Shown here: piece after piece, positions 8,625 to 23,717 of the stretch
Layout of the letters: each line of letters opens with the position of its first letter
Position numbering within the stretch: the stretch's first letter is position 1
From: a virus
Length of the DNA stretch: 23,717 nt
Reading direction: 5' to 3' (one strand)
Virus record (IMG/VR): IMGVR_UViG_3300022902_000078
Span: 1 to 23,717 of that record
Made by a program: the position numbers and the translations under genes
Notes under the pieces: model-generated
What the model saw: the letters and a program-made list of their open reading frames with translations, nothing else
Told to the model about the DNA's origin: nothing
Databases searched by the model: none

Positions 8625-10343
8625 CTACTTATCAATTCCGTTGGCGTCTGTATCTACTCCCGACTCAACAGGTACGTAGTTCGGCTGTCGACTGTTGTTT
8701 GCATTCGCTTCGCCCATCTTGCTGTCAATGTTGCCCAGCATGTCCAGCATTGCCGCGAAGATAGGAGAATTAGGATCCTCCCCACCCGCCCTAATGTCCT
8801 GCCGCACAAGAGCCTTGTTGGCTTCCGTCTGAAGTGGTCCTTCTGGTAACTCCCCACCAAACGTCCTAAGCATCGTATCGTCACCGTAAAGGGCACGTAT
8901 GCCCCGCATACCTATGTCGGTAACAAGATTCATTCCCTCTACAATTCGAGGGTAGTCGCTGCGCCGGGCCACGTCGCGGCCCCGCGTCCGCATGCTGTCC
9001 ATCATGGTGTCGGTAAGATTACGACGAATGCCGAGTTCCGTCTCGCCAAGTTCCTTCTTGGCCTTAGCTTGTCGTTGCGACCGTACCGCCACCAGTTCAG
9101 GGATTGTGTCGGCCGCATCGATCGCCTTTTGGGCCATACTGCCCTGCTCGGCTACGTCTATGTCACGAAGAGCTTTCTCAAACCGAGGACGGTCCGCCAT
9201 GATGCCTTCAAACGCCAGCCGGCCCTGTTTTCTCCCAAACCATCTGGCAAATTCTTCTGACGTCATGCTCTCTTTGATCTTTTGCGTAACGTCTAACGCC
9301 TCCTCAAACGTCTTGCCCTCTATCTCTGGTTTCTCCTGCCACGTCGTCATCATTTGAGAAAACCACGTGCCAGCAGTTGCCGCATCAACCTTTTGGGTAG
9401 CCAAGACGGCCGTACCTGCCAATATCGGCTCGTCTCGCATACCCATCAGACCCGCAGTTAGCCCACTCGTTGCAGACGCGGCCATGATTTCCTCAACCGA
9501 TGAGGGACTGTATGCACTGGCCGCAAACCCTTTTGACACCAACGCCCTTGTGCCGCCGGTCTCCGCTTCCCCCATCGTTTTATTGAGGGCCGCCGTCGCC
9601 GCTCCCATCTTGCCCGGTTGCTCCAACAGTGATCGACTCCGCAGGTCGGAAAAGAACTTCCAATCTTCCAAAGCACCGGCAGACTCCAGTTGAAAAATCA
9701 TCTTGCCCGCTTCGCCCAGCGTTGCCGCACCACCCTCCCTGTAGGTCTGCTTGGCTGCACTAACCAATGAACGGAGTTTGACCGGGTCGCCCAACGCCAA
9801 TTGGCCCAGCGAGCCCAACCCAATTTCTGATTCCTTTTGACGCTCAGCCGATTCCTGCCGTACTTTGCTCATTTCGCGAAGAGCCATCGTAACCCCTCGC
9901 ACAGCAGCCGATACACCAACATATCCCGCCGCGTACCTCATTAGGCTACTAAGTGCCGCAGGGCCGAACGCGGCTTGATTGGCAACTCCAACCGTTCTGA
10001 CACCACGGGACGCTAGCCGGGCGGCCACGCCCGCCGCCTGAAACTGTTGCTTGGTGTACCGGACCGCCTGAGCGTGTTGCTTCTCCGTGAGAATCGTGGC
10101 CTTTTTTGCCTGGTCGAGCATCCGTATCTGATCGCGGTACTTTTGGGCTCCCGACTTACTTTTCTCCCAGGCTTTCGTAGCTTCACGGCCTAGCTTCTTG
10201 GTTTGTGTCTCCAGGGCCTTAGATTCCTTGGCTGCCTTCTTCTCCGATTCCGCCACTTTGTCAAAGCCGCCTGCTATCGCCCTCGTAGCCAATACCGCTT
10301 TGCGCTCGTTAAGCGTTACGTCCATCCGCACCATACTTGTCAT
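8625..10343 (-). CDS. Putative tail tape measure protein (short)
   Basis: A 572-residue protein with TAGGAG six bases before the ATG at 10343. Residues 25-105 are rich in K, E, A and Q with coiled-coil appearance. Residues about 124-154 form a hydrophobic, Gly/Ala-rich segment like those of tape measures thought to enter the host membrane. The rest is helical and alanine-rich. Position after the G/GT chaperone genes and before tail-tip genes supports the call. Known tape measures scale at about 0.15 nm of tail per residue, so a tail of roughly 85 nm would be expected, assuming no other scaffold protein. No peptidase or lysozyme domain is seen. Confidence 0.8.
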   Translation of the reverse strand: MTSMVRMDVTLNERKAVLATRAIAGGFDKVAESEKKAAKESKALETQTKKLGREATKAWEKSKSGAQKYRDQIRMLDQAKKATILTEKQHAQAVRYTKQQFQAAGVAARLASRGVRTVGVANQAAFGPAALSSLMRYAAGYVGVSAAVRGVTMALREMSKVRQESAERQKESEIGLGSLGQLALGDPVKLRSLVSAAKQTYREGGAATLGEAGKMIFQLESAGALEDWKFFSDLRSRSLLEQPGKMGAATAALNKTMGEAETGGTRALVSKGFAASAYSPSSVEEIMAASATSGLTAGLMGMRDEPILAGTAVLATQKVDAATAGTWFSQMMTTWQEKPEIEGKTFEEALDVTQKIKESMTSEEFARWFGRKQGRLAFEGIMADRPRFEKALRDIDVAEQGSMAQKAIDAADTIPELVAVRSQRQAKAKKELGETELGIRRNLTDTMMDSMRTRGRDVARRSDYPRIVEGMNLVTDIGMRGIRALYGDDTMLRTFGGELPEGPLQTEANKALVRQDIRAGGEDPNSPIFAAMLDMLGNIDSKMGEANANNSRQPNYVPVESGVDTDANGIDK

Positions 10344-10351
10344 CGCTACTC

Positions 10352-10702
10352 CTACGGGTTGAAGTCGCGATCAACAGCCTTACAGAGCTGGCGTCGAGTA
10401 TGAGGACTGCCGCCGTCTGGAGTGGCGGTCACTTCGAGCCAGTAGTACGTATTGCGCACAAGTACACCGGCAGCCAACGGCCCCACAAAGTTTCCGTCGG
10501 AGCCCGCCACGAATGTCATGGACACCGCGTCTGCCCCGGTCACCACGGTCCCGTTATCTTCGCTCGTCGGGTAATCGCTTGCATATATCGAGAACTTGCA
10601 AGCATCAGCAACCGTGAGGGCTGCACCGGTAGAGTCCAACGAGGCGTCTTTCCACCAGACGTTATCGCCACCCAGAAAGATATCACGTATCTCGTTGCTC
10701 AT
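10352..10702 (-). CDS. Small tail-operon protein between chaperone and tape measure
   Basis: A 116-residue protein beginning MSNEIRDIFLGGDNVWWKDA. The ATG at 10702 overlaps the stop of the -1 frameshift product as ATGA; AGGA is two bases upstream. The sequence is beta-rich, like an Ig-type domain: CKFSIYASDYPTSEDNG, then YYWLEVTATPDGGSPHTRRQ. In lambda the chaperone is followed directly by the tape measure, so this is an extra gene. A structural accessory of the tail is likely, but I do not recognise it. Confidence 0.75.
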   Translation of the reverse strand: MSNEIRDIFLGGDNVWWKDASLDSTGAALTVADACKFSIYASDYPTSEDNGTVVTGADAVSMTFVAGSDGNFVGPLAAGVLVRNTYYWLEVTATPDGGSPHTRRQLCKAVDRDFNP

Positions 10703-11525
10703 GATCCTAACCCCACATCAAGGGCCCACAGGTCGGCTAGCGTTGGTCGGTATCCGGGGAATCGTCCGAGGGCCCATCGCCGGAAGGTTCGCCACCGGAT
10801 GCCTCGATAGTTTTTTTTAGCCACTCCATTTGGGATGGCCAGTCAATCATCGCGTTAAGCACATGGCCAACGGCCGATTCGGTAAACAGTTCCAAGAGAG
10901 CACATTCCGCCGGGCCGAGTCGATAGTTGACGGCCAACCCTTTGGCCGCCGCGTCGTGCGCGTCCGAGAACGTGACGATCACTTCGTCGCTCTCATCGTC
11001 GGCCTCAATCAGTGCCCGCTCTTGCGTCTCCTGCCACCGTGTGGCGATGTCCCAGACCTCTGCGAATTGATCCAACACCCGGCCTTGCGTCCACGTCCCG
11101 TCCTCCTGTAGCTCTGAGACTTGCGGCACGGCACAACGATAGACTCTCTCGCCGTCCAGTTCGTCGTGCTGCCGGATGACTGGGACTAGCCACTCTTGCC
11201 CATCGTTCAATCGTGCAAGGTGTCCCTTCAGCCGCTCGTCTCGGGCCACATCACCGGGGACCGGGCGATCGTCGTTATCAATCCCCACCCACGCCTCAAG
11301 CCCCGGAATCTTTCTCCATGTCTGTTTATCGGGATAGATGCCGACCCGGCCAGCATTCGGACCACCGCGAACCATCACGCCCGCCCCGCCGTCCGGACCG
11401 TTGCCCTCAAGCCGAACCCGCCCCATGCTCGGTGACTCGAACGCATAGCCCATGCCCGCAGCCTGCAACTCTTCCAGGCCGATTGACTTCGCTTGGGTCG
11501 GGAGATAGTAGAGAAAACCAGACAC
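10699..11525 (-). CDS. Tail assembly chaperone GT, product of -1 ribosomal frameshift
   Basis: The G frame reads CTA AAA AAA ACT. A -1 slip on A AAA AAA after 238 codons continues as AAC TAT CGA GGC, then 37 residues to TGA at 10701-10699. This gives a 275-aa fusion. The extension begins NYRGIRWRTFRRWALGRFPG and ends DVGLGS. It is open across the G stop and ends exactly at the start of the next gene (ATGA overlap), which a chance frame would not be expected to do. In lambda and many siphophages GT binds the tape measure and recruits tail tube protein. The layout is tail tube, G/GT, one small gene, tape measure. Confidence 0.78.
10737..11525 (-). CDS. Tail assembly chaperone G
   Basis: A 262-residue protein, the zero-frame product. 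I chose GTG at 11525, because TAGGA stands six bases before it; the GTG at 11531 immediately follows that motif and would leave no spacer. The N-terminus SGFLYYLPTQAKSIGLEELQ is typical of a small alpha/beta domain. The last 30 residues are Gly/Ser/Asp-rich (EASGGEPSGDGPSDDSPDTD) and look like a flexible tail replaced by GT after frameshift. Position after the tail tube gene and the slippery site make the chaperone role the best explanation. No database match could be checked. Confidence 0.75.
   Translation of the reverse strand: MSGFLYYLPTQAKSIGLEELQAAGMGYAFESPSMGRVRLEGNGPDGGAGVMVRGGPNAGRVGIYPDKQTWRKIPGLEAWVGIDNDDRPVPGDVARDERLKGHLARLNDGQEWLVPVIRQHDELDGERVYRCAVPQVSELQEDGTWTQGRVLDQFAEVWDIATRWQETQERALIEADDESDEVIVTFSDAHDAAAKGLAVNYRLGPAECALLELFTESAVGHVLNAMIDWPSQMEWLKKTIEASGGEPSGDGPSDDSPDTDQR
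10812..10818 (-). promoter_or_regulatory. -1 frameshift slippery heptamer A AAA AAA
   Basis: Eight A residues on the minus strand (10818-10811) are read in the G frame as CTA AAA AAA ACT, so the heptamer is in the X XXY YYZ register needed for -1 slippage. About 13 bases downstream a modest hairpin is possible (CCGG T GG CGAA CC TT CCGG), which might stimulate shifting. The main support is the long open -1 frame that ends at the next start codon. Confidence 0.75.
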
Positions 11526-11533
11526 GGACACTC

Positions 11534-12460
11534 CTACGTGATGGCCGATGAGGTGTCGAGAATCAACGGCGGGTTGGTGCCGTCGTAACGAAGAGGCAAC
11601 TCAAGCGTACACGTCGCAGGACCGCTCCCGCCCCATTGGATCGGCTCCGAAATCGTTGCGAATCCGTCAGCCGTGAACTTGATATGCTCCGCCGTTCCGT
11701 CGACCACGAAGCTCCCCGCGTCGTCACGTTTGCGGAGATAGAACGCGGTGTTGGCGTGCGTCACGGCCAACCCGGCAAGCGGAATCTTCGCCGCTGCCAA
11801 CCAGTTTGGATCAATGCCTTCAAGCGTGATGCTCGGGGCAATGCTCCGAATCGACGGGAAGGTGTCCCAGATATCGGAGTCGGCCCCCTCAACCTGGGCA
11901 TCAATGCCGAAATTGAGCGTGAACCGCTTTGCTTGGGTGAACGCAAGCGACTCGAACGTGAAGGCCCCCAGGGTGAATCGCTCGGTATCTCCGGCGGGTG
12001 TGGGGAGCGATTGGTCAACAGCTATCACGACCGGAGCCGTTGCCCCATCGGTGGAAGCAATCGCTACAGCGTAGCTCAGTACCGCGTCCCCTTGGTGGTC
12101 GCATGTGAGACTGATGGGCGCCACGATTCCCTTGACCATCGTATACAGATTGTGGGCCGTTACTCCGCTTCGTGTACCACCGGTCGCGTGCTCAAACAGG
12201 TACATTTTGAAGCCGGCCGCCAGCCCCGCAATGGATGCGCCGACCAATCCCGATTCATCCAACGCCGCCGCTATTTGGACTGTCGAAAATGTCGCGGCCG
12301 GCTTCTGCGCGGTCAGGGCGATGTGCTGCGGATACAGAGCGCCCGAGACAGACTCGGTGAGAACTTCCGAGCCAGTCGACAGACCGATGGCCGTTATCCC
12401 GCCGATCATAGTTGTATCGAATTCGACCTCGTATCCATCAAGTACTTGGGTGACGGCCAT
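11534..12460 (-). CDS. Putative major tail (tube) protein
   Basis: A 308-residue protein beginning MAVTQVLDGYEVEFDTTMIG, with AGGAG before the ATG. It is rich in A, T, G and S with regular beta strands, and lacks cysteine-cluster or enzyme motifs. It lies directly before the frameshifting chaperone and after three completion proteins, where lambda has V. The length is near that of lambda V (246 aa) plus a possible extra domain. Residues 195-235 (DAQVEGADSDIWDTFPSIRS, then EGIDPNWLAA) are unlike the rest and may form an insertion. The tube function is inferred from order and composition. Confidence 0.75.
   Translation of the reverse strand: MAVTQVLDGYEVEFDTTMIGGITAIGLSTGSEVLTESVSGALYPQHIALTAQKPAATFSTVQIAAALDESGLVGASIAGLAAGFKMYLFEHATGGTRSGVTAHNLYTMVKGIVAPISLTCDHQGDAVLSYAVAIASTDGATAPVVIAVDQSLPTPAGDTERFTLGAFTFESLAFTQAKRFTLNFGIDAQVEGADSDIWDTFPSIRSIAPSITLEGIDPNWLAAAKIPLAGLAVTHANTAFYLRKRDDAGSFVVDGTAEHIKFTADGFATISEPIQWGGSGPATCTLELPLRYDGTNPPLILDTSSAIT

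Positions 12461-23097: not shown

Positions 23098-23717
<620 letters not shown>

Follow-up and report, generated by a model that had tools for sequence, protein, structure and literature searches.

A predicted programmed frame change in a divergent putative tail-chaperone gene of likely planctomycete phages: probable RNA-polymerase slippage at nine A residues, and a probable switch to ribosomal frameshifting in some lineages

Gene order and slip site in the window

The DNA analysed here as a whole, called the window, is a 23.7-kb virus record whose minus strand carries a cluster of head and tail genes of siphophage type. By Pfam and PHROG matches, the cluster starts with a GpA-type terminase, a lambda-type portal, an S49 protease, and a phrog_1005 capsid protein. 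It continues with small connector-type genes, a tail-tube candidate, gene G with its T extension, a 116-aa orphan, and a tape measure candidate. The features around G are as follows.

11534 to 12460, minus strand: candidate tail tube protein of 308 aa, upstream of G, its identity taken from position
10737 to 11525, minus strand: G, putative tail assembly chaperone of 262 aa, an open frame from GTG 11525 to TAG 10737
10811 to 10818, minus strand: A8 candidate slippage run, with the in-phase heptamer A_AAA_AAA at 10818-10812
10699 to 10812, minus strand: T extension, 37 residues plus TGA, by translation of the −1 frame; the domain is conserved in relatives
10352 to 10702, minus strand: orphan ORF of 116 aa between T and the tape measure gene, starting in an ATGA overlap with T
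8625 to 10343, minus strand: candidate tape measure protein of 572 aa with tblastn relatives; its counterparts follow T directly in most relatives

An alternative GTG start for G lies at 11531, two codons earlier. Relatives of the tube candidate were 36–47% identical to it, and the 116-aa ORF had no tblastn match in the first related loci. Repeats were observed elsewhere in the window: a perfect (CTG)10 repeat at 23522-23552, which gives an alanine run within a methyltransferase-like ORF, and 15-bp tandem repeats at both contig ends (1-72 and 23680-23717, with GGTCGGCACCACAGA and TTCGCCACCCGTGGC units).

In the frame of the 262-residue ORF, the minus strand at the slip site reads ATG GAG TGG CTA AAA AAA ACT ATC. 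The sequence-only reading had described the A8 as CTA AAA AAA ACT in the right register for −1 slippage, which the minus-strand letters bear out. A heptamer of the form X_XXY_YYZ therefore stands in the zero-frame phase, and the −1 frame is open beyond the zero-frame stop, as at a −1 ribosomal site. Translation of the −1 frame from the slip site gave NYRGIRWRTFRRWALGRFPGYRPTLADLWALDVGLGS, and the predicted GT fusion was about 276 aa long. The frame ends at TGA 10701-10699, which overlaps the start of the next ORF (ATG 10702) in ATGA, as had been claimed. The earlier count of 37 residues past the G stop codon was wrong; 37 is the number counted from the slip site, and 38 nt of T, namely 12 codons and the stop, lie beyond the G stop.

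No A or T run of seven or more other than the A8 was found in the 23.7-kb window. A second IMG/VR contig, identical to the window over 10.8 kb, has the A8 likewise. Stimulators of −1 ribosomal frameshifting are usual, not obligatory. At the window A8, neither a well-spaced upstream SD nor a downstream structure was seen: GGAG begins 9 nt upstream of the run, nearer than the spacing known from dnaX, and z values for downstream RNA structure lay between −0.3 and +2.1, so the site shows no stimulator of ribosomal or polymerase slippage. No Rfam match was found in the window.

Pfam and PHROG gave no match for G, T, or the tube candidate, and Phage_TAC_2 (PF06894) was absent from the window. The search of 50,697 phage records by tblastn with G and the tube protein returned no match. 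The structure of G was modelled by AF2 from 41 relatives, with pLDDT 92.4 and pTM 0.87. The model has an N-terminal beta-rich part and a C-terminal part of beta plus helical structure. In BFVD, the complete model came closest to a tail assembly chaperone, and this match was weak (E 0.045, prob 0.93, TMt 0.46); with the C-terminal part alone, chaperones appeared only among weak matches. The PDB fold search with the model gave nothing at E ≤ 0.001. Candidates from VIA-align were rejected: PII-like folds reached Z 2.7 over 56 residues, no more than commonly shared arrangements give, and the C-terminal part had a best Z of 2.2. Because neither sequence nor fold searches gave a significant match to a known chaperone, the role of G rests on gene order and GT architecture, which point to a tail assembly chaperone. 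The sequence-only reading had suggested a divergent tail chaperone; gene order and architecture agree with this, but a sequence match to a known family was not obtained, and the fold match stayed at the level given above.

Relatives of G and conservation of the T-like domain

Nine diverged G relatives were obtained first, through the tube and capsid neighbours. A profile search of viral contigs yielded 46 and then 58 loci with G relatives. Genome contigs gave four loci, two of them genuine. Matches in Variovorax were discarded as chance, the protein there being transporter-like. The final set, after duplicate removal, consisted of 81 non-redundant loci from viral contigs and Planctomycetota genomes, mostly metagenomic contigs. 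Relatives were present in 12 of 392 Planctomycetota genomes, some on chromosome-sized contigs, and two named MAGs among the relatives are Planctomycetota; the hosts are therefore likely planctomycete bacteria.

The identity of G among relatives was 22–43% (41 aligned loci). In most loci the ORF before G is about 300 aa long, and the one after T usually measures about 450–930 aa. The followers of T in L076 and L054 had weak PHROG tape measure matches, with E 1e-4 and 1e-3. G lies between the candidate tail-tube and tape measure genes; in the window the tube is assigned by position, and the 116-aa orphan intervenes. L068 and L050 have near-identical G genes, and in L068 the frame is disrupted in the G body, upstream of the run.

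An out-of-frame C-terminal T-like domain was kept in 77 of the 81 relatives. The T profile detected the domain downstream in 72 loci, and in five more the −1 frame encoded a T-like peptide of weaker similarity. The consensus of T was about RW..YRRWARGL.PGYRPTLADLWALA.GL. The extension was conserved in relatives sharing just 30–43% identity in G, and among the 72 profile-detected cases, 71 had it in the −1 frame, with L062 as the exception. Without a change of frame late in G, this conserved downstream domain cannot be reached.

Codon conservation was compared in both frames, as the sequence-only reading had proposed, in the close pair L034/L041; more distant pairs were near saturation and less informative. 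In the part of T past the G stop, the −1 frame had pS 0.42 and pN 0.05, and the ratio for the whole T was 0.12. The zero-frame tail in the overlap had pS 0.00 and pN 0.07. The pattern matches the expectation for the −1 frame as the constrained one.

Four G relatives (L075, L119, L120, and L150) have neither slip site nor T domain, an apparent loss of GT. A tape measure-like ORF stands directly after G in L075 and in L119 and L120, the latter two being near-identical.

Relatives lacking the A run had been named beforehand as a point against a frameshift, and only these four loci lacked both the run and T. They would suit a chance A run with an accidentally open −1 frame and no fusion made. In 77 of 81 highly diverged loci, a slip site comes together with the T domain, which already contradicts chance and makes it hardly credible. 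The comparative evidence strongly supports a programmed frame change by which the product of a divergent putative tail-chaperone gene gains a T-like domain, and the GT fusion is almost certainly real.

Length, phase, and surroundings of the run

An A6–A10 run was found at the same place near the G end in 74 of 81 relatives. The run was A9 in 62 loci, A10 in 4, A8 in 3, A7 in 4, and A6 in 1, and 7 loci had none. Elsewhere in the 621 kb of these loci there were 96 A6, 25 A7, and 6 A8 runs, and no A run of nine or more. The family thus shows the expected mark of transcriptional slippage, an A or T run conserved at a length of at least nine (A9 in 62/81, A10 in 4); the A8 of the window falls short of it.

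The start phase of A9 was 0, 1, and 2 in 17, 27, and 18 loci, respectively, and every A7–A10 run held an in-phase A_AAA_AAA. Extra A residues to the left and right of this heptamer traded off to nine, with a correlation of −0.74. A total of nine was observed in 62 loci against 25.1 expected, and the maximum was 47 in 100,000 flank permutations, in which shared ancestry was not corrected. The G tree gave at least 27 phase changes with length nine kept, a rough figure as many branches are long or weakly supported.

The ribosome needs only the in-phase heptamer, so the flanking bases should be free; instead, the total is fixed at nine. A fixed length with a free phase is expected of RNA-polymerase slippage. 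Nine is a length at which bacterial polymerases slip efficiently, and the enzyme holds a 9–10 bp hybrid (PMC5009743). A conserved run of nine has been described as the sign of purposeful transcriptional slippage, and eight has been called non-slippery (PMC1088944). In E. coli, AAAAAAA is rarer than expected in all three frames, for which transcriptional slippage or indel mutation was suggested (PMC4066793).

Alternatively, all members, the A9 loci included, would use −1 ribosomal frameshifting, with A9 as a robust slippery tract. The −1 position of T in nearly all profile-detected loci and the in-phase heptamer within every A7–A10 run, hence also in A9, are consistent with this, and lambda GT frameshifting is ribosomal (PMC5009743). 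SD-like upstream motifs were also slightly above codon expectation, with no clear enrichment after codon matching (27 vs 21.7 expected, z 1.9). The fixed total of nine with its free phase argues against ribosomal frameshifting throughout, as does the A9/A10 class, which is without downstream structure (mean z about −0.2 to −0.4). In L062 (5688-5700), an A10 run is accompanied by a T-like domain encoded in the +1 frame, and the −1 frame meets a stop codon immediately, so a −1 ribosomal shift cannot serve this locus. L062 may reflect a polymerase that slips in the opposite direction, a shift of the −2 type, or a single-base error in the assembly. Ribosomal frameshifting in every member is considered doubtful, and polymerase slippage is preferred for the A9 loci.

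The run could also be a DNA-level contingency site (replication slippage, phase variation) and not a recoding site, as homopolymers are mutable and A6–A10 variants occur between lineages. The same A9 was nevertheless found in near-identical contigs from different samples (L034/L035, L036/L038, L072/L073, and L110/L112). Such contigs also shared the A8 (window and L001) and the A7 (L132/L133), and length nine is maintained across great divergence. A contingency site is therefore very improbable.

The exceptions to A9 fit a ribosomal class. The A6–A8 loci had the ribosomal phase in 8/8 cases, window included; if phase were free, the chance of this would be (1/3)^5 × (2/3)^3 = 0.0012, shared ancestry ignored. 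Strong hairpins were found directly downstream of the short run in L040, L059, L060, and L076. With a 60-nt window, hairpins with z below −2 occurred in 4/8 short-run loci vs 3/61 of the A9/A10 class (Fisher p 0.0024); at 40 and 80 nt the contrast gave p 0.14 and 0.06, and rank tests were not significant. Three loci have T without an A run and carry other canonical heptamers in phase instead: GGGAAAA (L141), CCCTTTC (L136), and CCCTTTA (L138). The tree requires eight or more transitions between the A9+ class and the short-run class.

The window phage is placed with the ribosomal class because its A8 is in the right phase. It might likewise make GT by RNA-polymerase slippage at the A8: the family is dominated by A9, there is no hairpin at this site, and the slippage length varies among bacteria (PMC1088944). 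The same source calls eight A's non-slippery, and the run of the window, like every other short run, stands in the ribosomal phase. Polymerase slippage at the A8 is accordingly rated unlikely, ribosomal slippage is rather likely, and a small remainder falls to both acting together. The programmed −1 ribosomal frameshift of the sequence-only reading is thus upheld in part: the frame change is strongly supported by the conservation of T, and the ribosomal route is the likelier one for the window, but the phase-free A9 of most relatives suggests the polymerase.

Proposed mechanism and comparison with known systems

According to the proposed mechanism, one gene would yield G (262 aa) together with a small amount of a second protein, GT. 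In GT, the T-like domain of about 37 residues would take the place of the poorly conserved G tail. The frame change would occur on the A8 run, and in the window phage it would most likely be −1 ribosomal slippage on A_AAA_AAA. In most of the family, with A9 in any phase, RNA polymerase would add an A to part of the mRNAs, and ordinary translation would follow. The ribosomal and polymerase routes would lead to the same GT. By analogy with lambda, G may coat the tape measure protein, and GT may use its T part to recruit tail-tube subunits. The frames, the gene order, the conservation of the T domain and of the run, and the phase and length statistics come directly from the sequences; from these we infer slippage, its level, the slipping machine, and the chaperone function.

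This whole account, with G and low-level GT, a probably ribosomal route in the window, and a probably polymerase-based route in most of the family, is considered quite probable. The narrower reading is fairly probable: GT would be made mainly by programmed RNA-polymerase slippage at A9 in a large planctomycete-phage chaperone family, and lineages including the window phage would have switched to ribosomal −1 frameshifting. As signals, the switched lineages would have GGGAAAA and CCCTTTN heptamers or short runs in the right phase, part of them followed by hairpins.

In textbooks, GT frameshifting is ascribed to the ribosome. No description of transcriptional slippage for phage tail assembly chaperones was found in the open-access literature searched. 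As in lambda G/GT and HK97 gp13/gp14, the gene lies between the major tail protein and the tape measure, and a −1 shift late in G gives access to an overlapping ORF (PMC5009743). No sequence relation to these systems was found. G has 262 aa here, compared with 140 in lambda and 128 in HK97, and T has 37 aa, compared with 144 in lambda. The site also differs from those of lambda and HK97 in being a run of A residues, which in most relatives is nine long and free in phase. HK97 was unsuitable as a control for A-run slip sites, as it has a GGGAAAAG stretch there and no A run.

The dnaX genes of Thermus thermophilus and E. coli are likewise homologous genes that give two products by different routes, namely slippage of the polymerase on a nine-base run or a −1 shift of the ribosome at A_AAA_AAG (PMC5009743). 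However, dnaX is a cellular gene with products at about 1:1, whereas the gene here is a phage gene, and its lambda counterpart requires a ratio of about 30:1; a single family, moreover, contains many apparent switches here. Long or length-conserved A runs in an ORF overlap, as found here, are also known from Citrobacter tssM1 (A11) and from IS elements with a conserved A9, in which the shifted-frame extension is made by transcriptional slippage (PMC4256274, PMC1088944).

The results add a putative chaperone family that escapes current annotation, with a T domain missed by gene callers. If the proposed mechanism is true, fixed length with free phase would be a simple sequence test that separates the two mechanisms. 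The same product ratio would then be set by RNA polymerase, and the repeated switches of machine would form a natural experiment on the evolution of recoding signals.
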